The translations under genes and the position numbers were made by a program. A stretch of 64,000 nt of DNA from contig JAFGQN010000222.1 of assembly GCA_016935665.1 (NCBI GenBank), forward strand, positions 1-64,000, in the 5' to 3' direction. Below are positions 24,711 through 61,104 of this stretch, piece after piece; the stretch's first letter is position 1; every line of letters starts with the position of its first letter. Under the pieces are notes generated by a model. That model had not been told where the DNA came from. It worked only from the letters and a program-made list of their open reading frames with translations, and did not search any database. Source of the stretch: Deltaproteobacteria bacterium (GTDB taxonomy: Bacteria > Myxococcota_A > Polyangia > JAAYKL01).

Positions 24711-24714
24711 CTTT

Positions 24715-26901: not shown

Positions 26902-28650
26902 TCATTTGTTGTTTGAGCTGCCGAGATGGGTTTCGTATTCGAGAATTTCATTGCGTCTTTGTTTTGCCTCGCGTTTTTGTTCTTCTGAATAAGAACCCAA
27001 ACGTTCCGCCAGGTCCAGATATGCGCGTGCCTCTTCAAATCTTTTAAGGCCTCCCAATGCCCCTGCGATTGCGAGACAAATTGGGAAGCTATTGCTTTTT
27101 AGTTTTTCAGCTGATTTAAATGCTGAAAGTGCGGCAGCATAGTTTCTGTCCTGCTCAGCGTATATCAGCCCGAGGCTATACCATGCTGAAAAAGTTGGAA
27201 AAACAGCAACACTTAATTTTAGATTCCTTTTTGCTCGTTCCGGGTCATTGTACTTGTGCAAAAGAACTGAGGCGATTCTTTCCAGTGCAATCGCCTGAAT
27301 AGGAGCCAGTCTTCTCTTTTTCGCTTTGTCATGTGCTTTGAGGTAAAGCGCAAGTGCCTTTGAGTAGTTGCCTTGGTTTTCGTAAGCGAATCCTGTATTG
27401 AAAACCGTATGCGGATGGTTGGGGTTTATTTGATATTCGGCTTGCCACAGGGAAAGCTCTGATTTCCATGCCTGAATGCGAATAAAAGATAGAAGGGCAA
27501 AAGTAAGAACTATTCCCGCAAAAAAAAATTTACTGTATTTGGGGTACTTTAGCAGCAGAAAGGCGCCAGCCAATGCCAGACCCACAGAGGGGATGTACAA
27601 ATATCTCGATGCAAATTCTCCCGACGTTTGTAAAAGGAGCAGAGAAGGTGCGACAGCGACACTCCAGAAGACAAGTCCTGCGGCGATGACAGACGAGACC
27701 CTTAGTTTCACTGCAATTAATATCAACAAGGGGAATAACAGCCAAAAATATGGAGCGCCCGCATATACTGACATTGATGTGATTAAAGATAGCGAACATG
27801 GAAATATTGAAAGGAACAGTGCTGTAAAAAAATCGGCAGGGAAACGAATGACTGCAGTTTGCAGGTGTATGTCCATGCTTCCCTGCAGAACCTTCGCCCT
27901 TATGGCGATGTAAATTCCCAAAACAACCACACTGACAGCGAGTGATAGTAAAGACTTGCGATTTCTAAAACGACGGCTTATCAGCGTGAAAAGTAAAAAA
28001 ACTGGAATCAGAACGCCAGTCTCCTTGCTGAAAATGGCTATTATTGTGAAGAAAATTATTGCCGCAAGGTATTTGACTTTTCCTGATTCGGTCCAGCGTG
28101 CATGGGCGCCGATAGTCGCTATCAGGCAGGGAAGAACAATGATGTCTCCAAGATTGGAGATGAATAGAACTGAGTCAATGCAATATGGCGTTGTTGTAAA
28201 CAGCAGGGCTGCTGCGGCGGAAGCGAATGGGATGCCACCTTCTTGCGAATGATCTGATTCTGATTCAGCCGGATGGAGGAACCAGTGGAGAATGCGTTTA
28301 AATGCAATGAAAACAAGTAAGACGGTTATGCAATGAAGCAGATACTGAAATATTCTATATCCTCTTACGTTAGTTCCAAACAGCTGATATTCAAAATACA
28401 GTATGGCAGTATTTATGGGTCGGTAAAAGGGGATGTCGCGGTTGTCATTGGTAATCGCGTGGAGGTAATTTCGGCTCAGCGAATCTTTTAGCGTGTCAAT
28501 GTTGTGCAGTGCCGGATTGTTTACAATCAGTTCCTTGTCGTCCCAGACGAAAGGATAATTCAGTGTGGGGGCAAACAGCGAGGCAGTTATCGCAACCAGA
28601 GCAATATGATACTTGAATTTCTTTAGCTTTGATTGGACGAGAGTTTTCAT
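26902..28650 (-). CDS. TMTC-like GT-C membrane protein with C-terminal TPRs (third of three)
   Basis: 582 aa; AGGAGC ahead of the ATG. The first loop after membrane segment 1 has the TMTC/GT-C signature FVWDDKELIVNNP (about 34-46) and a later FYRPINTAILYF. About ten membrane segments follow, then a C-terminal domain (about 425-575) with TPR-like repeats (NTGFAYENQGNYSKALALYL, YSLGLIYAEQ, ARAYLDLAERLG). TMTC enzymes are protein O-mannosyltransferases. The ATG overlaps the previous stop by 4 bp. Downstream of pilin genes on the same strand, it is a candidate pilin glycosyltransferase or polymer-handling partner. Confidence 0.83.
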   Translation of the reverse strand: MKTLVQSKLKKFKYHIALVAITASLFAPTLNYPFVWDDKELIVNNPALHNIDTLKDSLSRNYLHAITNDNRDIPFYRPINTAILYFEYQLFGTNVRGYRIFQYLLHCITVLLVFIAFKRILHWFLHPAESESDHSQEGGIPFASAAAALLFTTTPYCIDSVLFISNLGDIIVLPCLIATIGAHARWTESGKVKYLAAIIFFTIIAIFSKETGVLIPVFLLFTLISRRFRNRKSLLSLAVSVVVLGIYIAIRAKVLQGSMDIHLQTAVIRFPADFFTALFLSIFPCSLSLITSMSVYAGAPYFWLLFPLLILIAVKLRVSSVIAAGLVFWSVAVAPSLLLLQTSGEFASRYLYIPSVGLALAGAFLLLKYPKYSKFFFAGIVLTFALLSFIRIQAWKSELSLWQAEYQINPNHPHTVFNTGFAYENQGNYSKALALYLKAHDKAKKRRLAPIQAIALERIASVLLHKYNDPERAKRNLKLSVAVFPTFSAWYSLGLIYAEQDRNYAAALSAFKSAEKLKSNSFPICLAIAGALGGLKRFEEARAYLDLAERLGSYSEEQKREAKQRRNEILEYETHLGSSNNK

Positions 28651-30359
28651 TGCGCTTGCTCCTGAAAGTGAATTTCATCATCGCCATTTTCTGATTTCAG
28701 ATAACTCGAATAGTTTTTGATGCGATTTCGAATTACGTTTTTTTGCTTTTTTGTATGCCAGCGGGCAGTCAATGCCTGTCGCAGAACCCAAATTGCCTCT
28801 TCGGGATGGCCAGCATGGAGGCGGATTTGCGCAAGATTAAAAACGTATTGCAATTCATACTGATTATACCAAAGCGCTTTTTGTATATAATGGGTGGCAA
28901 GGTTGATGTCACCATCTCGACGCAGGACAATCTTACTCAAAATGGCATACTTCATAGCTGCTCTTCGGCCGTACAAAGGACGGTTGTTTTGTTCGAACTC
29001 GATAATCGTTTTCTCTGCCTCGTTGAATTTTTTTCTGCGAATGAGTGCTTCGCAGAGATTTGCCGCATCGACAGCCGAGTGTGGATGATAGAAGTACTCC
29101 GCTGTGTATAGACTTAAGCTGTTATTCCAATCTGATATTCTTATGAACGATAACAATGCCAGAGATACCACGGCAATTGGCAATGCAAAATGGAGTTTTG
29201 TGGTCGCGGCTCGTGAAAAAAATGGAAGGACAGCGATGAGCATCGTAGTCAATGGTATGTTGAAGTAACGAATGGGGATAAAAATGCTTCCCCAATGGCT
29301 GTCTGCTCCCGGCAATGACGGGATAATGACCAGTGCGCTCAGGTACCAGGATAGCATTGAAAAATATCGGATGTTTTTGTTCCCGTGTTTGACTGTCAGC
29401 AACAACAGCGGGAGCAGGACGTATAAAATGCCCCATACCCATGCCGCAATATCTGTATCATGAAGCATAAGATGTGCACCTGCCGGCACAGGCAAAAAAG
29501 TGTGTTTTAGTAATTGTCCCCAGGCAAAAAGCAATAGAATTGGGTCAATCTGGAAGGCTTTGTTAACAAGAGGCGTGAGCTCTCCGGCATTGGTGAGCGT
29601 AATGTTTCGCAGTATTAAAAAAGTTAACACTGGAAGAATTGTTACTGGAAAAAGTATAGCAATGGAACGTTTCGGAATCCTTCCGGCAAATGAGTGTGGT
29701 CGACAGAGTCGAACGGTAAGAATGGCCAATGGTAAAATACCAATACAAAGTATGCCCAATTCCTTTGATGCACATGAAAAAAAAGTTGCCATTGCAATGG
29801 CAGCCGGCAACCCCCTTTTGGGGCAAAGAAGATATTGTATGGATAATGTTAGCGACAGGACCATGAAAAGCAGCGACAGATGGTCTGAGATATTCGAAGC
29901 CATGCACAACACTTCAACGGACAATGGATGGATACAAAAAATCATGCAAACCCAAATTGCCGCGATTTTTTGGGAGGGGCAAATGGTTACAAGGAGCAGG
30001 GCGATAGCAATTCCCGTTGCCAGCAGGGCTATTAGAGACACAGTGTGATAAATCCAGGTCGAACCGCCAATGTTGGCCAGAAGCCAAAGGACGAAACTGG
30101 TCAATGGGCGCCAATAGCCGGGAAGAGGGGCAGTGTTGTAAGATGAATTTTCCCAAAATGGTACGGTTAAAATTTCCCATGGACTTTTGCTAATCATTGT
30201 TTGTTGAAAATCGCGAATGAGAAATACATCATCCCAAACGAGTTCGTTATGAACAACCATTGCACTTGCTGCCACCGTCATAAGTCCCGAAATTATCAGC
30301 GGTGGCAGCTTGCTGTCTGACAAAAGGCGTGATTCAAGTATAGATTTAAAAAAATTCAT
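28647..30359 (-). CDS. TMTC-like GT-C membrane protein (second of three)
   Basis: 570 aa. Signature LVWDDVFLIRDF (about 40-51), then WENSSYNTAPLPGYWRPLTSF. Strongly similar in plan to the upstream 30356 gene, sharing PFWENSS and YWRPxTSFxLW. About ten membrane segments; C-terminal region (about 420-570) is helical and TPR-like (AANLCEALIRRKKFNEAEKT, FNLAQIRLHAGHPEEAI). Overlaps both neighbours by 4 bp, so the three proteins are probably made together. Probably uses a polyprenyl-phosphate sugar in the periplasm. Confidence 0.83.
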   Translation of the reverse strand: MNFFKSILESRLLSDSKLPPLIISGLMTVAASAMVVHNELVWDDVFLIRDFQQTMISKSPWEILTVPFWENSSYNTAPLPGYWRPLTSFVLWLLANIGGSTWIYHTVSLIALLATGIAIALLLVTICPSQKIAAIWVCMIFCIHPLSVEVLCMASNISDHLSLLFMVLSLTLSIQYLLCPKRGLPAAIAMATFFSCASKELGILCIGILPLAILTVRLCRPHSFAGRIPKRSIAILFPVTILPVLTFLILRNITLTNAGELTPLVNKAFQIDPILLLFAWGQLLKHTFLPVPAGAHLMLHDTDIAAWVWGILYVLLPLLLLTVKHGNKNIRYFSMLSWYLSALVIIPSLPGADSHWGSIFIPIRYFNIPLTTMLIAVLPFFSRAATTKLHFALPIAVVSLALLSFIRISDWNNSLSLYTAEYFYHPHSAVDAANLCEALIRRKKFNEAEKTIIEFEQNNRPLYGRRAAMKYAILSKIVLRRDGDINLATHYIQKALWYNQYELQYVFNLAQIRLHAGHPEEAIWVLRQALTARWHTKKQKNVIRNRIKNYSSYLKSENGDDEIHFQEQAQ

Positions 30360-32023
30360 TTTTCACCAACATTTTTGCTGGCGTCAATTTGCATTATTTC
30401 ATTTCTTAAATTTAACAGGTATTTCTTTTGCTGAGTAGAAAACTGACGGTTGCCAACTGCGGACTTCAGCAGTATCGCCGCATCATCCCTGCGTCCTTCA
30501 GCGGCGAGAATTATGGCAAACCTTTCTATGAATTTGATTTTGTTGGGATTAATTGAAATAGATTTTTGGGCCAGCATATGGGCCGTTTGCAGATCGCCAT
30601 CTCTTCCAAATGATATTTCTGATCTGATAGAGGAAATATCCGCTTCCATCAATCTGCGTTGCGCTTGATATTTTTTTTCAAAATCGTTCAACAGTTTTTC
30701 GGCATCTGTGAACGCATGAATCCCTATGAGTGCTTCAGCCAGATTGATGGTTCGGTCGGGTGAATCCGGAGAAGCCGCCACTTCTGATGAAAAAAGCGAT
30801 ATACTGTCTTTCCACTGGGAAATCCTGATGTAGGCATTTGATGCCAGCGTTGCTGTAATCAACGGTAGCAAATAGAAAAGTTTTGACGATGACAGGCGGC
30901 GAGATACGATTGGCGTAAGCGCAATTAAATATCCGGGCAATGCCAGGTGAAAATATCTGACAGGAATTTCGACAAATTTGTCGGAGGGAAGGACGGCGAA
31001 AAGGGAGGGAATGAGTAAAAGATGTGCTGCACATAACCCAAAAACTATTTGCGCGAATTTTGACGATTTTTTATGTGCTATGACAATTGTGACGATGGTT
31101 GTCAGAATAGCAACTGAAGAAAGTAGAATATGCAGGACGTGTGCTTCCATTGCACCAGCAGTGGTACCGGATGGTGCAAAACACACGATTTTTTCTATGG
31201 CAAGCCCAATTCCAAAAAAGATCGACGTCAAGAATGTCGCGTCCATGGATTTCGAGATCACTGCGTCGCTACTTGCCAATACAAAATGGCGCAAGATAAG
31301 AAAGGCGATAGCGGGCACGATACATGAACACCACAATTCTGTTTTTTGTTTTGCTGTCAGCTTTACCCAATCGAGATGCTGAGGCAGTTTCCTAAGTAGT
31401 GCAAACCCTGTTGGAATGATTGCCGCAATGAGACCAAATTCTTTTGACGAGCACGAAAGAAATACCAGAGTACTGATAATAAACAAGCGGATTCCACCCG
31501 GGTTTTTAATGTATTTCAAAATATGATAGAATGCGCTCCAGAAAAAAATCAAGGCAAGATGGTCAGAAATGTTCGCTGCCATGCAGGTTACTTCTGCCGT
31601 TAAAGGATGTGACAGATACAGCAGACCCGCCCATTTTGCGAAATGGGTAATCTCGGGAGGAGAGAGAAATGTTTTTGCAAAAAAATATATAGTAATAGAT
31701 GCCAGTATCGCTGCGAGCAGGGATACCCCATGGAACATCCAGGGGGCTTGATGAATCAGGCTTACCCCCCAGAGGATAAACGACGTCATGGGGCGCCAGT
31801 AGTTCATTAGAGGTTCTTCGACAAACGACGAATTTTCCCAGAAGGGACGTGTGAGTATTTCCGACAATGTCGTCCATTTTCCAAGAAGTGGGTTATTGTC
31901 GATGATATATATATCATCCCATGTGAGTTGGTTGAAGACCACCGGAAAGATTGCAAGGAGCGTGACCGTTGTGGATACTGAAAATATGATTTGGCGCTTG
32001 TTAAGAAACGAATTTTCGTTCAT
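30356..32023 (-). CDS. TMTC-like GT-C membrane protein (first of three)
   Basis: 555 aa from the ATG at 32023; an in-frame ATG at 32068 would add 15 residues but paralogue alignment (about 35-40 residues before the W-D-D motif) and odd composition argue against it. Neither start has a good ribosome site. Signature LTWDDIYIIDNNPLLG, then PFWENSS and YWRPMTSFILW. Membrane segments fill the middle and a TPR-like tail closes it (TINLAEALIGIHAFTDAEKL, RFAIILAAEGRRDDAAIL). Same family as the two downstream genes. It comes 61 bases after the TPR-like gene at 32084. Confidence 0.8.
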   Translation of the reverse strand: MNENSFLNKRQIIFSVSTTVTLLAIFPVVFNQLTWDDIYIIDNNPLLGKWTTLSEILTRPFWENSSFVEEPLMNYWRPMTSFILWGVSLIHQAPWMFHGVSLLAAILASITIYFFAKTFLSPPEITHFAKWAGLLYLSHPLTAEVTCMAANISDHLALIFFWSAFYHILKYIKNPGGIRLFIISTLVFLSCSSKEFGLIAAIIPTGFALLRKLPQHLDWVKLTAKQKTELWCSCIVPAIAFLILRHFVLASSDAVISKSMDATFLTSIFFGIGLAIEKIVCFAPSGTTAGAMEAHVLHILLSSVAILTTIVTIVIAHKKSSKFAQIVFGLCAAHLLLIPSLFAVLPSDKFVEIPVRYFHLALPGYLIALTPIVSRRLSSSKLFYLLPLITATLASNAYIRISQWKDSISLFSSEVAASPDSPDRTINLAEALIGIHAFTDAEKLLNDFEKKYQAQRRLMEADISSIRSEISFGRDGDLQTAHMLAQKSISINPNKIKFIERFAIILAAEGRRDDAAILLKSAVGNRQFSTQQKKYLLNLRNEIMQIDASKNVGEK

Positions 32024-32083
32024 GAGTCTGCTTGTCTTCTGGTGCCACATCACTGAATAAAAATGCATGGTGCATTGGCATTT

Positions 32084-45081: not shown

Positions 45082-45172
45082 TTGTTTTATGAATCTCGAC
45101 TTGAATTTTCAGCTGATTTTTAACCTGCCTGGAAATTTGTTTTTGTTTTAATGGGGTGTTGGAAAACAGTTG

Positions 45173-45805
45173 ATGTGGAACCGCTTGTGGTCTATCAATG
45201 TGCCAATGGAATTAATGCGGCGGTTGTCAGAAATCAAGTGGGAAGCAAAGGTTGGAGATCCTTATCTGTTGGCCTGGTTGGTCGTCGCCGCATACCTGTT
45301 CGCTGCCTTTGGCTGTATCGCCTGCGCCATAAGAGCGGAGCAAATATTTGGAAGGCACAAGCTGAATTTTCATCGTACGGTGTGGGGGGGACTTGGCGCA
45401 GTAATGCTTTTTCTGGCAATCAACAAACAACTGGATTTGCAGACACTATTCACCCAAATCATGAAAGTGCTGGCCAAAAACTGGGACATTTATGAGCTTG
45501 GACGTCGCAGTCGAAAGTACTTTGTTTTTGGATTGGGATTATTCAGCGCCGGCGTAATGGCGTGGATTATGTGGAACGTTAGACGTCAATGGCGTCGATA
45601 CGTTATTCTATTACTGGGAGTGATTTTCATTGTTCGGTTTATAATCGTGCGCGCCGGAACATTCTACGGTGTTCGTTTGCCGGAGTTGTCCAGATTTACC
45701 GGTGGAATACGGGTGAATGGGATGCTGGAGCTTACAGGGGCTCTGGTGGTGGCCGCATCGGCGTATCTGAATCTGTGGACGGCCCAAAAGGCGCGGCGGA
45801 AATGA
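45173..45805 (+). CDS. Four-helix membrane protein, INKQ-type, first of a pair
   Basis: 210 aa from the ATG at 45173 with GGAAAA upstream. Four or five hydrophobic segments: about 32-52, 72-88, 115-138, 143-163, 185-203. The second holds AVMLFLAINKQLDLQTLFTQ, and a basic/aromatic helix follows. The INKQ-D/N-L motif is repeated in the next gene, which has the same membrane layout, so the two are paralogues. I do not recognise the function. Stop and next ATG overlap (ATGA). Confidence 0.75.
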   Translation: MWNRLWSINVPMELMRRLSEIKWEAKVGDPYLLAWLVVAAYLFAAFGCIACAIRAEQIFGRHKLNFHRTVWGGLGAVMLFLAINKQLDLQTLFTQIMKVLAKNWDIYELGRRSRKYFVFGLGLFSAGVMAWIMWNVRRQWRRYVILLLGVIFIVRFIIVRAGTFYGVRLPELSRFTGGIRVNGMLELTGALVVAASAYLNLWTAQKARRK

Positions 45806-46332
45806 GTGAGGTAATGTGGTGGGTGACAGTATTTGTATACTGGACGACCTGTGCGCTGTGCATATTTTCAGCCTTGAAAGCGCCCGATAAACGATGGTGG
45901 CGGCTGCTGGGAATTGGTTTTGCTGTCCTTGCAATTAACAAACAACACAATCTGACAGGGTTGATAACGCGGATGCTGCGCAGAAATGCGTTTCACAATC
46001 ATTGGTACTTTGAGCGTGCTGATATTCAATACTGGACCATCGGATTTATTGGGGCGCTTCTCATATGCCTGATTGCTTTATTCTGGTTTGTTGCCAATAA
46101 ACAGAAAGCGTCCGGAATTCAGCGATTCGTCCTGTCAATACTGTTGATTCTTGGATGTTATTCGCTGATGCGTTCCATTTCCCTGCATGCCCTTGATTAT
46201 TTTCTGTATCGGGATTTCCACGGTTTGCAAATAAACTGGGTTTTCGAACTGGGGATGTTGATTCTGGCGGTGGCCATGGTGGCCGGGGGGATAATCAGGT
46301 TGCTTCGGGAGCAGGGGCAAGAGGGCAAATGA
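45802..46332 (+). CDS. Four-helix membrane protein, INKQ-type, second of a pair
   Basis: 176 aa; start at 45802 overlaps the preceding stop by 4 bp. Four hydrophobic segments (about 5-23, 33-47, 73-95, 108-123) and a last one near 140-165. GFAVLAINKQHNLTGLITR matches the INKQ motif of the preceding gene; a late FHGLQINWVFELGMLI also corresponds to RVNGMLELTGAL there. Probably a heteromeric membrane pair. No function assigned. Confidence 0.73.
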   Translation: MSEVMWWVTVFVYWTTCALCIFSALKAPDKRWWRLLGIGFAVLAINKQHNLTGLITRMLRRNAFHNHWYFERADIQYWTIGFIGALLICLIALFWFVANKQKASGIQRFVLSILLILGCYSLMRSISLHALDYFLYRDFHGLQINWVFELGMLILAVAMVAGGIIRLLREQGQEGK

Positions 46333-46544: not shown

Positions 46545-47408
46545 ATGAATAGCAAAAGTTTAAAGGAATTGTCGCTGAAGAATCTGGTTACATCTGTTGG
46601 TTCAGTGTCCAATTCCGTTCGAAATACTGTGAAGGCTTTGGGGGTTCTGAAATCTGCCGATGCCAATGAAGATGTGCCAACATCTTCGCGGGGGACAGAT
46701 TCATCCCTCATCAACCGATTTGAAACCTTATCCAATCCGCAACGAAAGTTAATGGCGGAGATGAACCTGCATCTGAGACGTGCGATGTGGTGGGGCGCTC
46801 GCAACGGCACACTTAAAATCAAGCGGCTTGTGGATGTAGCTGGAGCAACCACTGGAATTATTGTTCTTTCGCCTGTGCTGTTGTCGGTGATGGCGGCAAT
46901 TAAAATTGAGGATGGCGGCTCCATTATTTACACATCGAAAAGGGTTGGACGTCACGGAAATGAATTTGATTTCTATAAGTTTCGTTCCATGGTGGAAAAT
47001 GCTGAGAAAATAAAGGACGAATTGCTGAATCAGAATGAGTCGGAGGCCGGGGTTATTTTCAAGATGAAGAATGATCCCCGAATTACAAAAGTCGGCCGGA
47101 TATTGCGCAGGACGTCTCTTGACGAGTTGCCGCAACTGTTCAATGTGTTGCGGGGGGATATGTCACTGGTGGGGCCCAGACCGCCGCTCCCCAGGGAAGT
47201 TGAGCAGTACAGGGTTGGCGATCGATATCGACTGGAGGTCATACCCGGTTTGACGTGCCTGTGGCAGGTAAGTGGACGAAGTGAACTGGATTTTCATCAA
47301 CAGGTTGAACTTGATCGCGCATATATTCATGAACAGACATTGTTAAATGATATTATCCTCATTTTACGGACAATTCCCGCTGTTCTCGGCGGACAGGGGT
47401 CATACTGA
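46545..47408 (+). CDS. Undecaprenyl-phosphate sugar phosphotransferase (WcaJ/bacterial sugar transferase)
   Basis: 287 aa. An N-terminal variable region (about 1-90) is followed by one membrane helix (about 95-117; GATTGIIVLSPVLLSVMA), then the bacterial sugar transferase core: IIYTSKRVGRHGNEFDFYKF(RSM), ITKVGRILRRTSLDELPQLF, NVLRGDMSLVGPRP, and IPGLTCLWQVSGR. The D-E in SLDELPQ is the catalytic dyad of monotopic phosphoglycosyl transferases. It starts synthesis of a surface polysaccharide repeat by moving a sugar-1-phosphate to undecaprenyl phosphate. Followed by the nucleotidyltransferase-like fusion gene. Confidence 0.92.
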   Translation: MNSKSLKELSLKNLVTSVGSVSNSVRNTVKALGVLKSADANEDVPTSSRGTDSSLINRFETLSNPQRKLMAEMNLHLRRAMWWGARNGTLKIKRLVDVAGATTGIIVLSPVLLSVMAAIKIEDGGSIIYTSKRVGRHGNEFDFYKFRSMVENAEKIKDELLNQNESEAGVIFKMKNDPRITKVGRILRRTSLDELPQLFNVLRGDMSLVGPRPPLPREVEQYRVGDRYRLEVIPGLTCLWQVSGRSELDFHQQVELDRAYIHEQTLLNDIILILRTIPAVLGGQGSY

Positions 47409-47435: not shown

Positions 47436-48917
47436 ATGGAACTGGTGCTGATATATTCCGATACAAATTCCTTTGAACCATTGCAATCGATTTTGCCAGT
47501 GTCGCTTATTTCGATAATGGGAAAGCCCCTGATTCAACATCAATTGGAGCTATGTTCCGGGCAGGGAATTCGGTCCTGTACGATTATTGCTTCCGACAAT
47601 CTAACTAAAATTCGGAATTTCTGCGGTGATGGCAGTCGCTTTGGTGTGCAGTTGAACCTGGTAACTGCCGCCCCATCGGGCAACGAGGTGGAAAGTCTTT
47701 TGCGCCATCGCAACCTGCTTGGGGACTACAGTCTGATTTTGGCAGGGCGCACGCTGGCGAATTTGCCAATCGAGAAATTGCGAAAAAGCCATGTGGAAGC
47801 CCAAAAACGAATTTCGATTATTCGGCATCGTGAGTCGAAGGATATTGTGGGACTTTTAACGGCCCCTCCCAGTCCAGGAGAATTGCTTCAAGGGCTTGAT
47901 GGCAGCTTAAAGCAGGCAGCCGAATACCTGTTGCTGAATTGTTCGGATGATGTTCACGTCATTGACTCGGATTTCCCCTATTTTGGTTGTCGTGCACTGC
48001 CAGAGGTGCTTCAGTTAACGGCCAAAGTCTTGCAGAATCCATCCGACTATATTCATGACACTCATTTTGCTCAGCAGGACAGAGGTATCCACCTGGGGCA
48101 TCACACATTGATTCACCCAACGGCGGTACTTCATCCTCCTGTGGCAATCGGTGATTTCTGCCAGATAATGGCCGGTGCTGAAGTAGGCCCGAACACTACG
48201 GTGTCCTCCGGATCCATCGTCGCCAAAGGCGCCACTGTAAAAAATTCGATTGTTTCTCCAGGGACATATGTGGGGGAGATGATGGAAGTGAAGGATGCCA
48301 TAGTGGTTGGCGCCACTCTGGTACAGCCGCGTTCGGGGACCAAAGTGCTCGTGAGCGATTCATTGTTGCTGGATAGTATTGACGGTGGTTCGCTGGTTGA
48401 AATATCCAATTCCATTCTTCATCGTGCTGCTGCCCTGGGGATGTTAACGGCTCTTTTTCCATTGGGCGCATCGATGGCAGCGATATCCAAATTGCGAACA
48501 AACCGGGCCATCTCCAAAACGCCGACGCTTGGGCACGGTGATGTGGAAGATATCCGAGATATTGGATGGTTGCCCCGATTTAACCGATTGGAATTGGCGG
48601 ACAAGGATTTACCCCTTTCCTGGTATCCAACATTGATTAATATTCTGAGGGGACAAATGCGTTTTACGGGACCTGGACCGGTTGGTTCCAGCGACGGCAG
48701 CGCAGACGTTATTGTACCCAACACTGTTCGATATACTGTTCCGCCGGGGTTGCTTCCGATTGATAAACTGTTTGAACCAGACTCGGACGAAGCGGAATTT
48801 GCAAATGTAATATATAGTAAAAAACATAGTTTGATTCAGGATTTACGTTGCGTGGCGGCATCTCTGACACGCGGGATTATTGGAAAACGAAATGCAAGGC
48901 GCCTGGCGGGGCTTTGA
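47436..48917 (+). CDS. Nucleotidyltransferase-like/left-handed beta-helix protein with a sugar-transferase-like tail
   Basis: 493 aa from the ATG at 47436; a TTG at 47421 is possible. Residues 1-200 resemble the GT-A nucleotidyltransferase fold (LVLIYSDTNSFEPLQSILPV, SIMGKPLIQHQLEL) but without the G-x-G-T-R motif of true pyrophosphorylases. Residues 216-325 are hexapeptide repeats (IHPTAVLHPPVAIGDFCQIM, GATVKNSIVSPGTYVG). The last 115 residues contain WLPRFNRLELADKDLPLSW and LINILRGQMRFTGPGPVG, matching the end of the upstream sugar transferase (LFNVLRGDMSLVGPRP), with no membrane helix or D-E dyad. May be a regulatory or scaffold partner of that enzyme. Confidence 0.77.
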   Translation: MELVLIYSDTNSFEPLQSILPVSLISIMGKPLIQHQLELCSGQGIRSCTIIASDNLTKIRNFCGDGSRFGVQLNLVTAAPSGNEVESLLRHRNLLGDYSLILAGRTLANLPIEKLRKSHVEAQKRISIIRHRESKDIVGLLTAPPSPGELLQGLDGSLKQAAEYLLLNCSDDVHVIDSDFPYFGCRALPEVLQLTAKVLQNPSDYIHDTHFAQQDRGIHLGHHTLIHPTAVLHPPVAIGDFCQIMAGAEVGPNTTVSSGSIVAKGATVKNSIVSPGTYVGEMMEVKDAIVVGATLVQPRSGTKVLVSDSLLLDSIDGGSLVEISNSILHRAAALGMLTALFPLGASMAAISKLRTNRAISKTPTLGHGDVEDIRDIGWLPRFNRLELADKDLPLSWYPTLINILRGQMRFTGPGPVGSSDGSADVIVPNTVRYTVPPGLLPIDKLFEPDSDEAEFANVIYSKKHSLIQDLRCVAASLTRGIIGKRNARRLAGL

Positions 48918-48957: not shown

Positions 48958-49287
48958 ATGATTTTTATTCACGAAGAGCGTTCTGGATGTACCGTCATCA
49001 GATTCGAGGAGCAACGGCTTGATGTGTTGGTTGCTCAGGAGATGAAATCGGAGCTTCTCAAAATACTGGACAACGGCTCATCTCAGATCGGACTGGATTT
49101 GAGTAAAGTGGCTTTTGTCGATTCAAGTGGACTTGGTGCACTTGTGGCAGTTCTGAAGAATATCGGGCCAGAAGGCAGTCTGCGATTATGGGGGCTCACT
49201 CCGGAAGTGAAGTCCGTTTTTGAACTGACGCAACTTTACAAGGTTTTTGATATTTATGAACTCGAACAGGATGCTTTATCGAGATGA
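48958..49287 (+). CDS. STAS-domain anti-anti-sigma factor (SpoIIAA-like)
   Basis: 109 aa, a lone STAS domain; AGGAGAG precedes the ATG. The phosphorylation site is VAFVDSSGLGAL with S56/S57, matching the Ser of SpoIIAA/RsbV. GSLRLWGLTPEVKSVFELT forms the closing part of the fold. Its stop overlaps a tiny open frame and the anti-sigma kinase gene follows, giving the usual partner-switching pair. It probably controls a sigma factor or an envelope function tied to the polysaccharide locus; no sigma factor or phosphatase gene is seen here. Confidence 0.9.
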   Translation: MIFIHEERSGCTVIRFEEQRLDVLVAQEMKSELLKILDNGSSQIGLDLSKVAFVDSSGLGALVAVLKNIGPEGSLRLWGLTPEVKSVFELTQLYKVFDIYELEQDALSR

Positions 49288-49448
49288 GTTTAAATAGGCG
49301 GGTTATAGTTGAGCTTCCTCTGAGCAGATTCAGCGGAGTGCGTATGGGATGTATGGGGGGGACAAAGCCTGTTTTTGACGATTTGTGGCATAGCATTGCC
49401 ATGAATATTGGCCAATTGGCGAGATACGAACATGTCCTTTACCATTGA
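49284..49448 (+). CDS. Possible 54-aa open frame between STAS and kinase genes
   Basis: The ATG overlaps the STAS stop (ATGA). The peptide starts MSLNRRVIVELPLSRFSGVR and ends about 17 bases inside the kinase start. No family seen. It may be a true small protein, or only a translation bridge coupling the two genes. Weak support. Confidence 0.3.
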   Translation: MSLNRRVIVELPLSRFSGVRMGCMGGTKPVFDDLWHSIAMNIGQLARYEHVLYH

Positions 49449-49866
49449 ATATCGCGTAGCTGCAACGGCGTTGAGCATCCGCGCTATTTCCATGAGTCTA
49501 AAAGCATTTTTCAGTAATTTTGAAAGTGTCGCAGATTCTGCTTCCATGTTGGAACTTGCAATAGCAGAAGGCATGAACAATGTGTTCGAACACGCGTATG
49601 ACGGTCGAACTGAAGGTGAAATGCGAATTGTTGTTCAACTGGAAGGCAAAAAGTTGAGTGTTTCCATTTTCGATCAGGGGGAGGAGCCCAACCCGGATCG
49701 TGTCAGTGCGATTCCGTTTATGTCGGAATTTACCGATGATTTGCCCGAGAGGGAGAGTCTGTTGTGCGAAGGGCGCGGCGTCTACATCATGGAGACTCTG
49801 ATGGATTCTCTTGATTATCAGCGTGTTGGAGATGAAAACTGTCTGATAATGAAAAAAACGTTTTAA
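49432..49866 (+). CDS. RsbW-like anti-sigma serine kinase (HATPase)
   Basis: 144 aa from the ATG at 49432. GHKL ATPase motifs: N-box ELAIAEGMNNVFEHAY (41-56; E46, N50, H54), G1 box FDQGEEPNPD (about 80), and G2-like GRGVYIMETLMD near 118. This is the SpoIIAB/RsbW type that binds a sigma factor or phosphorylates a STAS partner, here surely the preceding gene. The kinase and the convergent GH44 gene are only 16 bases apart. Confidence 0.88.
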   Translation: MSFTIEYRVAATALSIRAISMSLKAFFSNFESVADSASMLELAIAEGMNNVFEHAYDGRTEGEMRIVVQLEGKKLSVSIFDQGEEPNPDRVSAIPFMSEFTDDLPERESLLCEGRGVYIMETLMDSLDYQRVGDENCLIMKKTF

Positions 49867-49882: not shown

Positions 49883-51754
49883 CTACTGAGCGTTCAGTTC
49901 AATTGTAGTGACACTCAGCGCAGGTAGCGTGTGAGTGAACGCATTGCCGGTAATGCTCACAGAACCCGCCGCGGCTGGCGATGCATTCTGTTCGGTGAGT
50001 TGGTAAACGGAGCCGCTGGTGAAAACTGTATCGTCTGTAATTGAGATATTCGCCGACAATGGCTGCGTCGTTTTGTTTATCGCGACAAGTACCATGCGAT
50101 TGGGATCTGTGCTGTCGAGGCTCGCGTATATCGAAGTGCCCGCTATGTTTGTGGTAGTGGCTGCGATATGCGTGTCACCGAAGGTTGAATTGGCGCCATC
50201 GTAGTTTCTGTACATGTCAATGGCTCCGAATACATACTCTTTTTCAAACACCCATACGTTGGCAATATATGTTTCTTCTCTGCCAAAGATACCCAGCACA
50301 TCCGCCTCTGCGACGCCGCCTGAAATGTGTTCTCCGCCACCATAATAATATTCAGTAAAAGCAAGTTTGGTACCTGGATAATGATCGGCGATCTGTTGTT
50401 TCAGTCGAGGTAAGAGTCGAATCGGTTCTCCCATATAATTGGCAATCCAGCTCTTTTCGGTATATGTGGGGTCCCACAGGGAACGTGGCGCCTGGACCCT
50501 CGCTTCGACCATTGCTGCTGACGTGTCGTCATTCAGTATTCGCTTGGAATTTGCCTGGGCTTCCGGATACCAGTGGAGATCCAGCACATCCACCAGGCGG
50601 TGTCCCGCAGTTGCCTCAGCTGCTTTTAATCCGTCCAGGAAGTAGTTGATAAAGTCACCATTGCTGCCTGCGTCGGGCGCGGACTGCAGATTTACGAACC
50701 CGTTGAAGCCATAGCTGACAAATCCCAGGATGGTCGCATCGGCATTGACGTTCTTAATGGCAGTTGCATACTCTATCGTTTTTGCCAGCAGCTCGGCATA
50801 AGTAACGGCATTCGGGTGCACTTCACGATGGGTGGAAGACCAAAGATCCGGCTCATTATCCAGGCTGTAAAACAACCTGTTCACTGGATCTGTGTCGGCG
50901 TTTGGAAATTGCCCGGATACATAATTTACAAACTCGTCCTGATAAACAACCCCGTCACTGATATTTGGCGGATATTCAAAAGCAGCACCTTTGGTCGATT
51001 TTGATTCAACGAATCGATTGGCGAGGTAATTCGGATCGCCAAGGTCCACTTTTCCGGATTTGTCCGCGGCGACATAGTCAACAAGAGGCACCGTTATAAT
51101 ACACGCCGCACCACCATCAAATGCATCCTGTACATACAATCTGGTTGCTTCACCCGCCGTGTCTCCCCCCCCCAGCAGGGAGTCGCTGGAATAGCTGGCA
51201 TCAGAGCCGGCATTGGATGCATTGTTTTCCCAGTTGAAGGCTGTGTACCGGTTTCCACCAGCTCTGTCTATTGTAATGCTGTTTCCAAGGCCATCCCAGT
51301 CGACACTATTGGCGCCATAGATATATGGAGAAATGGGATGCACATTTTCGGATGAATTGATGGTGAATTGAACAGTGCCGGCAGCAGATGTGTCAGTAGT
51401 GCTGGTACCCGTGTCAGTGGTGCCTGTTCCCGTGTCGGGTGTGCCCGTACCTGTGCCCGTGTCAGTAGTACCTGTGGCGGTGGCGGTATCTGAATCGTTG
51501 GTGCTGACCGTATTCGAGTCGCTGTTGGTGTCTTCGATTGACGCGGTGCCATCACTGGTACATACGGGACTCCCGCTGCAATCCGGATCATCACAGTCAA
51601 AAAGGCGGTCGTTATCGTTGTCAATATCGTCGCCACATTCCCCCGCTGCATTACCTTCGTAATTATCGTTGTTTGGATTATCGGCGCTGTTCTTGTCTGA
51701 ACACGCACATATCAGTATCACCAAAGCGATAAGAATATCTTTTTTCAAATTCAT
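49883..51754 (-). CDS. GH44 endoglucanase/xyloglucanase, lipoprotein
   Basis: 623 aa; AAGGAGGGG precedes the ATG. Lipoprotein signal with lipobox Cys at C18 (ICAC). Residues 38-66 are the Asp/Cys motif shared with neighbours (GECGDDIDNDNDRLFDC). A T/D/G linker runs from about 70 to 125. The GH44 catalytic domain starts near 130: ISPYIYGANS, DRAGGNRYTAFNWENNASNA, SLDNEPDLWSSTHREVHP (acid/base E301) and LAFTEYYYGGGEH (nucleophile E468). A C-terminal beta domain follows (about 545-623). GH44 enzymes are retaining beta-1,4-glucanases, often active on xyloglucan. Predicted surface location. Confidence 0.93.
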   Translation of the reverse strand: MNLKKDILIALVILICACSDKNSADNPNNDNYEGNAAGECGDDIDNDNDRLFDCDDPDCSGSPVCTSDGTASIEDTNSDSNTVSTNDSDTATATGTTDTGTGTGTPDTGTGTTDTGTSTTDTSAAGTVQFTINSSENVHPISPYIYGANSVDWDGLGNSITIDRAGGNRYTAFNWENNASNAGSDASYSSDSLLGGGDTAGEATRLYVQDAFDGGAACIITVPLVDYVAADKSGKVDLGDPNYLANRFVESKSTKGAAFEYPPNISDGVVYQDEFVNYVSGQFPNADTDPVNRLFYSLDNEPDLWSSTHREVHPNAVTYAELLAKTIEYATAIKNVNADATILGFVSYGFNGFVNLQSAPDAGSNGDFINYFLDGLKAAEATAGHRLVDVLDLHWYPEAQANSKRILNDDTSAAMVEARVQAPRSLWDPTYTEKSWIANYMGEPIRLLPRLKQQIADHYPGTKLAFTEYYYGGGEHISGGVAEADVLGIFGREETYIANVWVFEKEYVFGAIDMYRNYDGANSTFGDTHIAATTTNIAGTSIYASLDSTDPNRMVLVAINKTTQPLSANISITDDTVFTSGSVYQLTEQNASPAAAGSVSITGNAFTHTLPALSVTTIELNAQ

Positions 51755-53387: not shown

Positions 53388-54725
53388 TCAGAATTGTTCC
53401 TCAATGGTTTTCATTAACGGGTCCTGCTGGCCGGCGGTTGCATTGGGGAGGTATCCCTGATTGATGGTCCATATCATTGCTCCTCCCAGTCGCGCCTGTT
53501 TGACAAATTGCGCTTTGCTTCGAATGGACCTTTCATTTTCAAAGGATATATAGGTGCACCCATTAATTGGAGGCTCCAGTGTCAGATACGGAACCTCCGC
53601 AAGCTCGTCATACGAATATTTGGAATGAGGCAGATAGTCGTGAATTATTTTGGTGTAACTCATGCTGTCTTCAGCGGCGATGATTCTGGACCCCCTGAGT
53701 TCCTCCCGCGGCGCCTGTACCGGCGCGGAATAACATATCCCAAAAAAACCAATACCTATCCCAATTTTCGCTGCTGGAATACCGCTTTTAATGTAAAGAT
53801 TCACTGTTTCTGATACAGACATGGGCGTTGATTCTGTTTCACCTTTTAAGGCAGCCGAATGCCAGCTGTGCAACTCGGAGGCCTCGAAGGCCGTAGCCAT
53901 GGAATATGACTTGATATTAATCTGGTCAAGTCTGGGCACGATTGCAGAAATGAATGAGTCTGCTTTCTGATAATTGGAGTTTAGTGGCGCAACGGGAAAG
54001 GTTAAAAGAACGTCTGGCCATTCGTACCGCAATGCGGCCACGAGCTCTTTAAACTGTTGATGATCTTCCACCATGAAAGGCTCCCACGCAAGGTCCAGTC
54101 CATCCATTTTGTGCAGGTCTCGAGCATATGTGACCAATTCAGCAACAAATCGACTCAGTGTTGCCGGAGAAGTTGCTGAAAGCAGCTTTTCCCTCATTCC
54201 CTTTCCCCCAAGCATTGCCAGTGTTTTAACATTTTTTTTTTGGGCAAGCGAGACCAACTGGTCAATCAGTTGGGCGCCATCTGTTTTACTGGGCTGATAT
54301 AGACTTGTATCAATGGAACCATCCTCGTTGGGCAGGATGGCTCCGACTGCCAAATGGGTCAATGCGTCAAAATTGATGTTTTCAGGTGGATACTGCTTCG
54401 TTTGAGAACCCATGTAATAGCCAAGTGTCCATAATGATTTTGAAGAACTGGAATTGTCGATTTTGTTTGTGGTTTGCTGTGCATTAATGTCGTTAACGGC
54501 CGCTGGCTTGTCAGATTCCTCTGGCGTATTCGAATCGGTGGATCTCTTGATGTGCGCATTTTCTTTTGCAGTGCCCGCATTGCCGTCGGCCTGAGTGGTT
54601 TTCGGGTTGCCTGCTTTGCATTTGAATCTGTTTTTCATACAGCCGCTGAGAGGTAGCGTAGCCATTCCGCAGACGAGCACCAGTTTGACAAATCTTAATG
54701 ATAGTCGAGACATTTCTGATTTCAT
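53388..54725 (-). CDS. GH18-type lipoprotein with altered catalytic motif (DGLDLAWE)
   Basis: 445 aa; GTGGAGT lies before the ATG. Lipoprotein signal ends at C29 (PLSGC). A Ser/Thr/Asn/Asp linker (about 35-95) lacks the Cys/Asp motif of neighbours. The TIM-barrel domain begins LGYYMGSQTKQYPPENINFD. The GH18 motif D-x-x-D-x-D-x-E reads D208-G-L-D211-L-A213-W-E215: the second-last acidic residue that positions the substrate acetamido group is Ala. The two homologues at 58214 and 59611 keep DGLDLDWE. The catalytic Glu is kept, so the protein may be weakly active or only bind sugar. Downstream strands match the homologues (SYTKIIHDYLPHSKY, INQGYLPNA). Confidence 0.9.
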   Translation of the reverse strand: MKSEMSRLSLRFVKLVLVCGMATLPLSGCMKNRFKCKAGNPKTTQADGNAGTAKENAHIKRSTDSNTPEESDKPAAVNDINAQQTTNKIDNSSSSKSLWTLGYYMGSQTKQYPPENINFDALTHLAVGAILPNEDGSIDTSLYQPSKTDGAQLIDQLVSLAQKKNVKTLAMLGGKGMREKLLSATSPATLSRFVAELVTYARDLHKMDGLDLAWEPFMVEDHQQFKELVAALRYEWPDVLLTFPVAPLNSNYQKADSFISAIVPRLDQINIKSYSMATAFEASELHSWHSAALKGETESTPMSVSETVNLYIKSGIPAAKIGIGIGFFGICYSAPVQAPREELRGSRIIAAEDSMSYTKIIHDYLPHSKYSYDELAEVPYLTLEPPINGCTYISFENERSIRSKAQFVKQARLGGAMIWTINQGYLPNATAGQQDPLMKTIEEQF

Positions 54726-58050: not shown

Positions 58051-58213
58051 AATAGATTCCTGTTTTTCAACTGGAGCATAATATTGGTGATTGAGCTGTT
58101 GATTTGCGGAGCCTTAATGATTTCGTTTTACTTGTCTAACAGTGTTTTACTACTATATAAACTCTAGTTACATAAGCAGTTTAAGAGGACATTTTTTTGC
58201 ATTGGAGGCAGAA

Positions 58214-59560
58214 ATGCTACGATTACATGTATTGGGGCTGATATTATTGGCGAGCGTAATTGGTTGCGCTTCGAACGATGGCACCGATAAAGAGTGGGAA
58301 GGGGACTCTCCCGGAGAGTGTGCGGACGACATTGACAACGACATGGATCAATTGTTCGATTGCAATGATCCTGATTGTGCGAATAGTCCGGCGTGTGGTG
58401 GCACCGATGGAAGCACCGACACATCTTCGCAGGCAAATGATTCCAGCTCCAGCGAGACACAATCGTCTGACAGTGTCAATGACACGGGAACTGGTGTTGA
58501 GCCAATGGGGGAGGGCGAATATTGGGTAACCGGCTATTACGTTGGCTATCAGCGCAGCCTGTATCCTCCGGAGGTCGTCAATTATCAGGCGATGACTCAT
58601 CTGGCAATAGGCGCCATTCTTCCTAAAAGCGATGGTACGCTGGATACCAATTTTTATCTTACCGCAATGCAGGGGGCAGCTATGGTGGACGAGTTGGTGG
58701 AGAGGGCGCATGCCGTGGGGACAAAAGTGTTGGGGATGGTGGGAGGAGCGGGGGCCGACGCGGAGTTTGCCTCTGCGTCTTCGTCAGTAAATCTTAGTAA
58801 ATTTGTGCAGGAATTGGTGTCGTTTGCGAGGGATTCGCATCATATGGACGGGCTGGATCTGGACTGGGAACCATTGAACGATGAAGACCATGCACCTTTT
58901 GAGGCCCTGGTGGATGCCCTTCGTGCAGCCTGGCCGGAAGTGATTTTGACGTTACCCACTGGATTTCTAAATTCGAATTACGGCTCGCCTGACCCATTTC
59001 TTGCTCAGATTGCGCCAAAACTCGATCAGATTAATTTAATGTCATATGGCATGGCCGGAGGTTGGTCCGGATGGGAGAGCTGGCACTCGTCAGCATTGTA
59101 CGGTGACGGTCCAAGTTATCCAACATCCGTCAGTCAGTCAGCGGAGTCACTGATAGCAGCGAATATTCCTTCTAAAAAGGTGGGTGTTGGGATCGGTTTC
59201 TACGGTCTATGCTACTCAGAGCCAGTGACAGGACCGCGTCAGGCCCTCAACGGTGCAAGTGTGCTTAAAAGGGATAATAAAATGAGTTACACCAATATTA
59301 TGACTGATTATTATTCTGAAAGCAGCTATGTCTTTGATACCGAAGCGAAGGTTCCTTATCTGTCTCTCACACCAGCGAAAGATAGCTGTTCTTATGTTAC
59401 TTACGAAAATGAAGCCACAATCGAAGCAAAGGCAAGCTATGTGAAACAAAAGAATTTGGGAGGAGTCATTATCTGGACCATCAATCAAGGGTATTTGCCA
59501 AACGCTTCGGGAGCCAAAGACCCATTGATGGACACTTTGTTTACTTCCCTCAGGCAATAA
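58214..59560 (+). CDS. GH18-type chitinase-like lipoprotein (A)
   Basis: 448 aa; GGAGG precedes the ATG at 58214. Lipoprotein signal ends at C18 (VIGC). Residues 35-61 are the shared Asp/Cys motif (GECADDIDNDMDQLFDC). A short linker (about 62-98) follows. The GH18 TIM barrel begins TGYYVGYQRSLYPPE; active site MDGLDLDWEP places D212, D215, D217 and E219 as in D-x-x-D-x-D-x-E. GH18 enzymes cut chitin or GlcNAc-beta-1,4 linkages with substrate-assisted catalysis. It is followed by a close homologue, so the two arose by tandem duplication. Substrate (chitin, N-glycans or peptidoglycan) is not shown. Confidence 0.92.
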   Translation: MLRLHVLGLILLASVIGCASNDGTDKEWEGDSPGECADDIDNDMDQLFDCNDPDCANSPACGGTDGSTDTSSQANDSSSSETQSSDSVNDTGTGVEPMGEGEYWVTGYYVGYQRSLYPPEVVNYQAMTHLAIGAILPKSDGTLDTNFYLTAMQGAAMVDELVERAHAVGTKVLGMVGGAGADAEFASASSSVNLSKFVQELVSFARDSHHMDGLDLDWEPLNDEDHAPFEALVDALRAAWPEVILTLPTGFLNSNYGSPDPFLAQIAPKLDQINLMSYGMAGGWSGWESWHSSALYGDGPSYPTSVSQSAESLIAANIPSKKVGVGIGFYGLCYSEPVTGPRQALNGASVLKRDNKMSYTNIMTDYYSESSYVFDTEAKVPYLSLTPAKDSCSYVTYENEATIEAKASYVKQKNLGGVIIWTINQGYLPNASGAKDPLMDTLFTSLRQ

Positions 59561-59610: not shown

Positions 59611-61104
59611 ATGAGACGATTGTCATTCTATTTATCATTTTCAATGTTTGGGTTAATTGCCTGTTCTTCAGACAATAACGCACAAGGGAAATGGGAAGGC
59701 GATGATGCCGGTGAGTGTGAAGATCAGGCTGACAACGACATGGATGGTTTGTTTGATTGCAATGATCCGGACTGCTCAGGGAGTCCTGTATGCGCTGGAT
59801 CTGATTTGACCAATGACTCCTCTTCACAACAGACAAATGATACCAATACAAGCGGGATGCAATCATCCGGTAACGGTGGTGATACGCAAACGGGTCAACC
59901 GACAGACACCGGTACAGGTCAACCGAAAGATACGCAAACGGGTCAACCGACAGACACCGGCACAGATCAACCGACAGATACGCAAACGGGTCAACCGAGA
60001 GATACCGGCACAGATCAACCGACGGACACCGGCACAGGTGTGGAGCCGATACCGGATGGCAAGTACTGGGTAACCGGGTATTATGTTGGGTATCAGCAGA
60101 GCCAGTATCCCCCGGAAGTCGTTAATTATCAGGCGATGACTCATCTGGCAATAGGCGCCATTCTTCCCCGGAACAATGGATCTCTGGATACAACGTTTTA
60201 CCTCTCCGCGACAAAAGGGCCTGTACTGGTTGATGAACTGGTCGAGCGTGCGCATGCCGTGGGAACAAAGGTGTTGGGGATGGTTGGAGGCGCAGGTGCT
60301 GATTCTGCATTCATTTCCGCGTCGTCGTCAGCCAATCGCACTAATTTTGTGCAGGAGCTGGTCTCGTTTGCAAGAGATGAGCACAAAATGGATGGTCTGG
60401 ATTTGGACTGGGAACCACTGAACGATGAAGATCATGTACCTTTCGAGGCCCTGGTGGATGCGCTTCGCGCTGCGTGGCCGGAAGTGATATTGACGTTTCC
60501 CACTGGATTTTTCAATTCAAATTATGGTTCCGCTCATCCATTCCTCGCCCGGATTGCCCCCAAACTCGATCAGATCAATCTGATGTCCTATGGCATGGCT
60601 GGCGCCTGGTCAGGATGGGAAAGCTGGCACTCATCCGCCTTGTACGATGATGGTCCCGCACATCCGACATCGGTCAGTCAATCCGTTGAATCTCTTTTAG
60701 GTGTAAATGTGCCATCCAGAAAAGTGGGTGTTGGAATTGGTTTTTATGGACTTTGCTACTCAGCTCCGGTGACTGGACCACGTCAATCCCTGGATGGTGC
60801 AAGTGTGCTTAAGAGAGACAATAAGATGAGCTACACCAATATTATGACAGATTACTATTCCGCCAGCAGCTATATCTTTGATGCCGAAGCGCAGGTTCCA
60901 TATCTGTCACTTTCACCGGCTGTGAATGACTGTGCTTATGTCACCTACGAAGATAAAGCCTCCATCGAAGCAAAGGCTGACTATGTGAAGCAAAAGAATT
61001 TGGGAGGTGCCATCGTCTGGACCATCAATCAAGGGTACTTGCCAGACGCGGCTGGGGACAAAGACCCTTTGATGGACACGTTATTCACCTCGTTAATACA
61101 ATAA
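59611..61104 (+). CDS. GH18-type chitinase-like lipoprotein (B)
   Basis: 497 aa; GGGAGGC precedes the ATG. Lipoprotein signal ends at C18 (LIAC). Shared Asp/Cys motif at 35-61 (GECEDQADNDMDGLFDC). The linker is longer than in A: residues 91-143 are repeats of the type DTGTGQPKDTQTGQPTD. The GH18 barrel has D261-G-L-D-L-D-W-E268 intact. Identity to A is high throughout the catalytic domain, for example both keep HLAIGAILP and ERAHAVGTKVLGMVGGAGAD. A second copy with a longer, Gln/Pro-containing linker may reach further from the cell. Confidence 0.93.
   Translation: MRRLSFYLSFSMFGLIACSSDNNAQGKWEGDDAGECEDQADNDMDGLFDCNDPDCSGSPVCAGSDLTNDSSSQQTNDTNTSGMQSSGNGGDTQTGQPTDTGTGQPKDTQTGQPTDTGTDQPTDTQTGQPRDTGTDQPTDTGTGVEPIPDGKYWVTGYYVGYQQSQYPPEVVNYQAMTHLAIGAILPRNNGSLDTTFYLSATKGPVLVDELVERAHAVGTKVLGMVGGAGADSAFISASSSANRTNFVQELVSFARDEHKMDGLDLDWEPLNDEDHVPFEALVDALRAAWPEVILTFPTGFFNSNYGSAHPFLARIAPKLDQINLMSYGMAGAWSGWESWHSSALYDDGPAHPTSVSQSVESLLGVNVPSRKVGVGIGFYGLCYSAPVTGPRQSLDGASVLKRDNKMSYTNIMTDYYSASSYIFDAEAQVPYLSLSPAVNDCAYVTYEDKASIEAKADYVKQKNLGGAIVWTINQGYLPDAAGDKDPLMDTLFTSLIQ
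59881..60039 (+). repeat. Tandem repeats coding the T/G/Q/P/D linker of GH18 B
   Basis: Units of about 24-27 bp (ACGGGTCAACCGACAGATAC type) code QTGQPTDTGT-like stretches; all keep the reading frame. Linker A, in the neighbouring gene, has only one such unit, so expansion happened after duplication. Confidence 0.75.

Follow-up and report, generated by a model that had tools for sequence, protein, structure and literature searches.

Glycan assembly is started by enzymes of the monotopic phosphoglycosyl transferase (monoPGT) type, which take sugar-1-phosphate from an NDP-sugar donor and place it on undecaprenyl phosphate. How this first committed step of surface-polysaccharide synthesis, which spends scarce undecaprenyl phosphate, is controlled is an open question, and proposed regulators of initiating PGTs appear to be few, among them the DUF of the large PGTs and EpsW. 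On the side of the NDP-sugar pyrophosphorylases, GlgD and eIF2B gamma/epsilon are non-catalytic relatives, and GMPPA has been described as a non-catalytic paralogue that regulates GMPPB (PMC11228364). The large PGT WbaP is reported to be a dimer, and its DUF has been linked to UMP regulation and to the binding of UMP or UDP-sugar (PMC10942596). In Myxococcus xanthus, EpsW has been proposed to activate the PGT EpsZ through binding (PMC12802240). In the small PGT PglC, a helix-breaking proline and the serine preceding it are reported to set the re-entrant topology; replacing the proline with alanine abolishes activity, and the proline is thought to aid the binding of polyprenol phosphate (PMC6133551). 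A DX12P motif has been described for WcaJ and EpsZ (PMC7484181).

Here, a window of 64,000 nucleotides from a Deltaproteobacteria bacterium (contig JAFGQN010000222.1) was analysed, in which an intact small monoPGT gene is followed by a gene that joins a nucleotidyltransferase-like head, a left-handed beta-helix and a degenerate PGT domain. We consider it reasonably probable that the product of this fusion gene is attached to the membrane and, itself non-catalytic, serves as a partner subunit of the small upstream monoPGT. The two genes and the parts of the fusion are arranged as follows.

46545 to 47408, forward strand: intact small monoPGT, 287 aa (Bac_transf E 2.7e-65; dyad Asp193-Glu194 in SLDELPQ)
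47436 to 48917, forward strand: fusion protein gene, 493 aa (pseudo-nucleotidyltransferase, left-handed beta-helix and pseudo-PGT)
47436 to 48035, forward strand: nucleotidyltransferase-like head, residues ~1-200 (Pfam NTP_transferase; alignment with GxGTR-bearing rows)
48084 to 48335, forward strand: left-handed parallel beta-helix of hexapeptide repeats, residues ~217-300 (Pfam Hexapep)
48408 to 48515, forward strand: degenerate, predicted re-entrant membrane helix of the pseudo-PGT, residues ~325-360 (profile alignment, hydropathy)
48549 to 48914, forward strand: globular part of the pseudo-PGT, residues ~372-493 (Bac_transf, profile alignment)

The same fusion, whose occurrence elsewhere the preliminary description of this DNA had proposed as a check, was found in several families and classes of one phylum. 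At least 18 members were counted, 13 belonging to the class of the window and 5 to other classes; the number is a minimum, as it rests on the candidates selected below from among the matches listed. Intact orthologues with 66-67% identity over the full length are present in two genomes of the same genus (MAGs Deltaproteobacteria bacterium isolate ZodW_Metabat.4 and ZodW_Metabat.284). In a sample of 377 genomes spanning the phylum, a genus profile matched 8 at E <= 1e-6, the window genome included, and all eight turned out to be members. From a nine-sequence profile run on the class (317 genomes), ten candidates were taken that covered both halves or scored strongly, one of which (G358) was already counted. 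Two ordinary pyrophosphorylases with GxGTR (G449, locus L123, and G263, locus L128) were rejected as members. A pattern scan of genome contigs with the genus alignment, which also covered genomes outside the phylum, yielded matches in the genus only.

The fusion frame opens with an ATG at 47436, 27 nt downstream of the stop of the transferase frame, and runs for 493 codons to a stop at 48915-48917. Its head exceeds the Pfam cut-off for NTP_transferase (PF00483; E 1.4e-7, 31.8 bits against 21.2), and its middle part exceeds that for Hexapep (PF00132; E 2.3e-8, 33.8 bits against 27), with an LbH_EIF2B match in the beta-helix region lying below its own Pfam cut-off. The heads of two relatives (G116 and G275) gave no NTP_transferase match in Pfam at E 0.01, and the beta-helix residues P235 and G239 are identical in 18/18 relatives. 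The tail falls below the cut-off of 27 bits for Bac_transf (PF02397; E 2.2e-4, 21.3 bits), which the tails of some relatives exceed (for example, 51.8 bits in G060). The tail similarity on which the preliminary description turned was found both by BLASTP against the upstream transferase (36 aa, 36% identity, E 3e-4) and by profile-profile alignment of the tails of nine relatives with nine intact transferases (E 6.6e-16). With 17 tails against 18 transferases, the score was 79.1 (E 1.1e-11), and none of 100 column shuffles scored above 22.9; tail counts here and below refer to 17 members, G536 being excluded as it has no alignable tail. The best 25 of 36 NCBIfam matches to the fusion all lie below their cut-offs, Arch_glmU being the first (E 8.9e-15), and the best 60 of 77 matches in a PDB sequence search of the fusion include no PGT and fall in the head or the beta-helix. 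An AlphaFold model from an alignment of three sequences, with a mean pLDDT of 44 and a tail below 40 and thus too low for use, has two helices with a break at 341-343. A promoter and terminator scan gave matches no commoner than in shuffled sequence.

Active sugar nucleotidyltransferases carry GxGTR and PKP as catalytic signatures. In the window head, the corresponding positions read SDTNS (8-12) and PVS (21-23), and the GD position reads GR (104-105). GxG[TS]R and PKP were sought in the first 60 residues, and each was found in 0/18 relatives, the window included. Active pyrophosphorylases were aligned for comparison (13 GxGTR-bearing rows, 11 counted once duplicates were removed), and the PKP lysine is present in 11/11 of these versus 0/18 fusion members. 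Because these controls were picked by their GxGTR, which makes the comparison circular for that motif, the PKP lysine is the only independent control. In the tail, the Asp-Glu dyad that is kept in 18/18 cognate PGTs is represented by both residues in 0/17 members; the position holds no Glu, one Asp (G583) and seven gaps, with Trp at the Glu position in five, and in the window it reads Ser395-Trp396 (48618-48623). The stretch around the dyad is deleted in 7/12 same-class tails. None of the 17 tails retains the Lys of KFRSM or the Trp of WQVxGR, and all 17 have the Gly of VGPRP and the Tyr of the DxxYI block, TGPGP replacing VGPRP in the window tail. These counts bear out two earlier statements, that the N-terminal half lacks G-x-G-T-R and that the tail lacks the catalytic D-E; full catalytic residues were looked for by alignment and were absent. 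The alignments indicate that the catalytic signatures of both enzyme-derived domains of the fusion are gone.

Acyltransferases are common among hexapeptide proteins, and the fusion might still be an enzyme, either an acyltransferase acting via its beta-helix or a transferase whose catalytic residues have migrated. A sub-cut-off match to NeuD/PglB acetyltransferases (E 8e-8) would fit the former, and some polar residues are kept, with Q36, R90, D308, Y460 and D469 each present in at least 15/18 members. However, no histidine is widely kept, the best column reaching 10/18 immediately before the beta-helix, and, among the 26 columns in which 15/18 members or more agree, 19 hold Gly, Pro, Ala or Leu. 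Catalysis by the fusion protein is therefore regarded as quite improbable.

The extent of the tail required revision. According to the preliminary description, the C-terminal 115 residues match the end of the upstream transferase and lack its helix; the similarity stands, but it extends over approximately 169 residues, and the helix is included. The profile alignment of tails to PGTs begins at the membrane helix, with residues ~325-360 aligned to the re-entrant helix of the PGTs. When the helix columns alone were shuffled, the score was at most 69.3 in 100/100 shuffles, versus 79.1 unshuffled, and it was 65.9 when the helix was removed; the helix profile by itself (score 22.6, probability 18.6%) is too short to convince. 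The same residues show the highest 19-residue hydropathy of the fusion protein, and the helix segment is the most hydrophobic stretch in 16/17 tail-bearing members, the exception being G113. The helix-breaking Pro342 (48459-48461) has a counterpart in 15/17 tails and 18/18 PGTs, with hardly any other proline nearby. The Pro of the DX12P motif survives in the tails and its Asp does not (0/17 at the aligned column), and at the columns of the Arg and Asp that start the PGT helix, where the alignment is weak, Arg occurs in 1/17 tails and Asp in 0/17.

Given that a degenerate membrane helix is present together with its proline, the tail is best described as a whole, worn-down PGT domain, which would belong to the monoPGT superfamily by descent and is predicted to share the re-entrant topology. 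The relative in G536 (L125:4550-5482, forward strand) has lost its PGT tail except for a C-terminal hydrophobic segment, yet it keeps the dead nucleotidyltransferase and the beta-helix and still follows an intact PGT. Owing to this loss and to the dyad-region deletions, a complete PGT fold does not appear to be needed everywhere.

The tail and the neighbouring transferase are homologous and adjacent, as expected from the origin put forward in the preliminary description, in which a partial duplicate of the transferase was fused on, here taken as a recent event. The phylogenetic evidence contradicts this origin. In a maximum-likelihood tree, in which the program flags long branches among the tails, the 17 tails group as a single clade with support of 100/100, as do the 18 PGTs with 90/97, and a tree forcing the three genus tails onto their own PGTs was rejected (AU p 6.25e-6). 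The window tail shares 18.7% identity with the neighbouring PGT (best 23.6% among 17 PGTs compared) and 32-37% with the tails of two genomes from another class. The retained membrane helix and the presence of the same fusion in several families and classes also speak against a local partial copy, which we regard as highly improbable. The tail clade, the rejection by the AU test and the low identity to the neighbour thus place the fusion event far back, and an ancient duplication of some PGT is the likely origin of the tail. The PGTs of the window genus form a supported clade (98/98) with those of G060 and G065, which belong to another class, and the tails nearest to the window genus by path are those of G065 and G060, the tail fork being weakly placed in the tree; these placements hint that the PGT and the fusion may have moved together.

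Each of the 18 fusion genes shares its strand with an intact PGT gene; 16 of them adjoin that gene and two (G240 and G116) lie one gene away, the intervening gene in both cases encoding a pseudoPGT-WecG protein. Distances in the head and beta-helix correlate with those of the cognate PGT (r 0.892; 0/2000 permutations as high), a correlation that linked genes would also show if they were simply inherited together. The window monoPGT has no hydrophobic segment ahead of its re-entrant helix, as is the case for 17/18 cognate PGTs, G518 having one. In the window genome (8.16 Mb, 95% complete), PF02397 has two matches, the weak one in the fusion and the upstream PGT, which is the only full-length match found. 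Since both same-genus genomes (G001 and G002) carry a second, longer PGT (open frames of 499 and 508 aa), one longer PGT may be missing from the window assembly. The cognate PGT is the sole full PF02397 protein found in 6/18 genomes (G000, G358, G480, G518, G517 and G536), although the completeness of two of these assemblies is no more than 73% and 81%. The 25 other full PF02397 proteins in member genomes comprise 19 frames of 408-832 aa, which by length would fit large PGTs, the other 6 measuring 211-343 aa. Immediately 5' of the window PGT (45170-46332, forward strand), two small proteins of hydrophobic appearance are encoded for which Pfam gave either nothing or sub-cut-off matches.

Pairs of genus members show pS of 0.70-0.90 and pN of 0.11-0.29 for the fusion gene and its three domains, with pN of up to 0.36 for the 36-codon helix alone. 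The gene is thus under purifying selection in its genus and, with pN well under pS, is not a decaying gene. Together, the lost signatures, the purifying selection and the PGT linkage in 18/18 members lend good support to the earlier suggestion that the fusion, without catalysis of its own, may regulate the initiating enzyme or act as its scaffold; the fusion probably helps to control or organise the start of sugar chains. From gene order only, we infer a contact between the fusion and the PGT. As a partner subunit, the fusion would place its pseudo-PGT tail in the membrane beside the active PGT and bind the enzyme there, and the beta-helix would make the head oligomeric. The dead nucleotidyltransferase head would still bind a nucleotide or NDP-sugar and relay a signal or, alternatively, would merely hold the complex together. 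The fusion would then provide externally what the DUF of large PGTs provides in-chain, that is, dimer contacts and a nucleotide-sensing site, and a second input may come from a switch protein of the STAS type whose gene lies close by. PglC, itself a small PGT, is reported to work as a monomer (PMC10942596), which speaks against a general need for a partner.

Beyond the gene pair, the window contains no obvious polysaccharide cluster, as Pfam searches of 40 chosen ORFs gave no match to the Wzx, Wzy, Wzz or Poly_export families. Near the relatives, matches of the Wzz/tyrosine-kinase type are sub-cut-off (G065 and G480), and two further candidates (G159 and G358) gave no Pfam match. The window also holds three GH18 genes, one GH44 gene and two neighbouring GH45 genes, assigned by Pfam at the following positions.

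53388 to 54725, reverse strand: glycoside hydrolase gene
58142 to 59560, forward strand: glycoside hydrolase gene
59611 to 61104, forward strand: glycoside hydrolase gene
49883 to 51754, reverse strand: glycoside hydrolase gene
2678 to 3712, reverse strand: glycoside hydrolase gene
3818 to 5284, reverse strand: glycoside hydrolase gene

Three consecutive genes of 570-582 aa on the reverse strand (26902-32068) match PMT_2 and TPR, TPR only, and nothing at E 0.001, one each; they may form a divergent membrane-glycosyltransferase family whose tails carry TPRs. A row of genes on the reverse strand (20784-25845) encodes a NeuB-like protein, a thiamine-diphosphate enzyme, an FkbM methyltransferase with a sub-cut-off PglD_N-like start, and a GT2; this is perhaps a modified-sugar cassette.

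Directly downstream of the fusion gene lie two genes of a type used in partner switching.

48958 to 49287, forward strand: STAS domain protein, anti-sigma-factor antagonist type (Pfam STAS E 4e-16)
49408 to 49866, forward strand: HATPase_c_2 protein, anti-sigma serine-kinase type (Pfam E 1.9e-21)

The HATPase_c_2 protein is a neighbour in the genus. In stretches of 7-14 kb around the fusion, a STAS gene was found in 10/18 loci (the window, G001, G002, G065, G060, G275, G358, G480, G502 and G583), eight above the Pfam cut-off and two (G001 and G002) by model search only, and it shares the strand of the fusion in 8/10. The STAS model gave 0 matches on 77 control loci, which are shorter at ~3.3 kb each (254,577 bases). 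A HATPase is present in 6/18 loci, the G240 copy being fused to a SpoIIE phosphatase domain. Near the G240 relative, L041:3588-5711 (reverse strand) encodes a PAS-SpoIIE-HATPase protein, likely a phosphatase/kinase of a STAS switch. The STAS genes near PGT or pseudo-PGT loci are located as follows.

L043:3152-3520, forward strand: STAS gene
L118:8048-8632, reverse strand: STAS gene
L119:7422-7865, reverse strand: STAS gene
L120:208-1872, forward strand: STAS gene
L121:7732-8115, reverse strand: STAS gene
L038:4460-4840, forward strand: STAS gene
L039:7206-7598, reverse strand: STAS gene
L131:3284-4651, reverse strand: STAS gene

The recurrence of STAS genes in several families makes partner-switch control of glycan initiation possible. 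In its strongest form, the STAS/HATPase pair, with a SpoIIE-type phosphatase, would be the main input, the STAS protein binding the fusion or the PGT and toggling glycan initiation post-translationally. The excess of STAS genes over the control loci and the HATPase genes, one with a phosphatase domain, are consistent with such a switch, as is a STAS gene that adjoins the separate pseudoPGT-WecG gene of G309. The STAS protein SypA is reported to control syp-dependent biofilm formation, by a mechanism described in that 2015 report as not known (PMC4517449). Nevertheless, STAS was not found in 8/18 loci, some of which end at contig ends, whereas the PGT is present in 18/18; in 5/10 loci the STAS gene lies upstream of the PGT and does not adjoin it, and the STAS/HATPase pair could equally act on a sigma factor. 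A partner switch as the main input is accordingly considered unlikely, and the partner-subunit reading is retained with STAS as a possible second input.

Further degenerate PGT domains are fused to WecG/TagA in 5/18 genomes, in four of them beside the fusion gene (G065, G060, G240 and G116) and in G309 on another contig.

L039:3266-5287, forward strand: pseudo-PGT N-terminal to WecG/TagA, the frame running on into an active PGT
L038:6763-8781, reverse strand: pseudo-PGT N-terminal to WecG/TagA, the frame running on into an active PGT
L041:7763-9163, reverse strand: pseudo-PGT N-terminal to WecG/TagA
L042:4511-5875, forward strand: pseudo-PGT N-terminal to WecG/TagA
L131:1651-3294, forward strand: pseudo-PGT N-terminal to WecG/TagA

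A single reading frame thus carries pseudo-PGT, WecG and the active PGT in both G065 and G060 (assigned by Pfam for G060). Both dyad residues were found in none of the five WecG-linked domains, four judged by alignment and G309 by eye; in the tree, these domains lie apart from the tails and do not form one clade. They lend weight to a pure scaffold, in which the pseudo-PGT docks successive enzymes (the NDP-sugar side, the PGT and WecG/TagA) at the membrane and senses nothing. Searches with PF02397 at E<=0.01, however, revealed no pseudoPGT-WecG in the window genome or the other 12 same-class genomes, and a dead nucleotidyltransferase would contribute no catalytic step to a metabolon, a point in favour of sensing. 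We therefore find a pure scaffold rather doubtful and keep to a partner subunit whose head may sense.

A broader proposal, which we offer as a tentative possibility, is that dead PGT domains constitute a general docking and sensing module carried on a dead pyrophosphorylase and on WecG/TagA. Together with a bare small PGT, they might form a STAS-controlled, nucleotide-sugar-sensing initiation complex that passes the first lipid-linked sugar to the second glycosyltransferase. Such a complex, if real, would be the large-PGT design divided over separate proteins, and it would bring a first pseudo-PGT family. A limited search of open-licence PMC literature found no description of a non-catalytic PGT domain. 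The 2021 PNAS survey of monoPGT architectures, reportedly the primary source for the Bi-PGT category, may include something similar. In any case, the fusion offers a testable handle on initiation, combining a dead initiating enzyme with a dead enzyme of the substrate-making type and being encoded with a live PGT in every member examined.

Each of the closest described systems shares part of this design. The large monoPGTs (WbaP, WcaJ and EpsZ) resemble the fusion in having a PGT domain, a re-entrant helix with a helix-breaking proline and an extra nucleotide-related module linked to the PGT; however, they carry a four-helix bundle and a DUF, whereas the fusion has a nucleotidyltransferase/beta-helix head and a dead PGT part, and its active PGT is a separate small protein. 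GMPPA, GlgD and eIF2B gamma/epsilon likewise combine a nucleotidyltransferase-like domain with a left-handed beta-helix, but the enzyme linked to the fusion is a PGT rather than a pyrophosphorylase, and a pseudo-PGT tail has been added. Bi-PGTs also join a second domain to a monoPGT domain (PMC10942596), yet their PGT domain is catalytic, whereas the catalytic residues of both tail and head are gone from the fusion; with the dyad absent, the fusion would not be classed as a Bifunctional monoPGT. EpsW offers a parallel to the proposed role, as a protein partner proposed to bind an initiating PGT directly and thereby regulate it (PMC12802240), although this single-domain response regulator acts on a large PGT and has no domain in common with the fusion.
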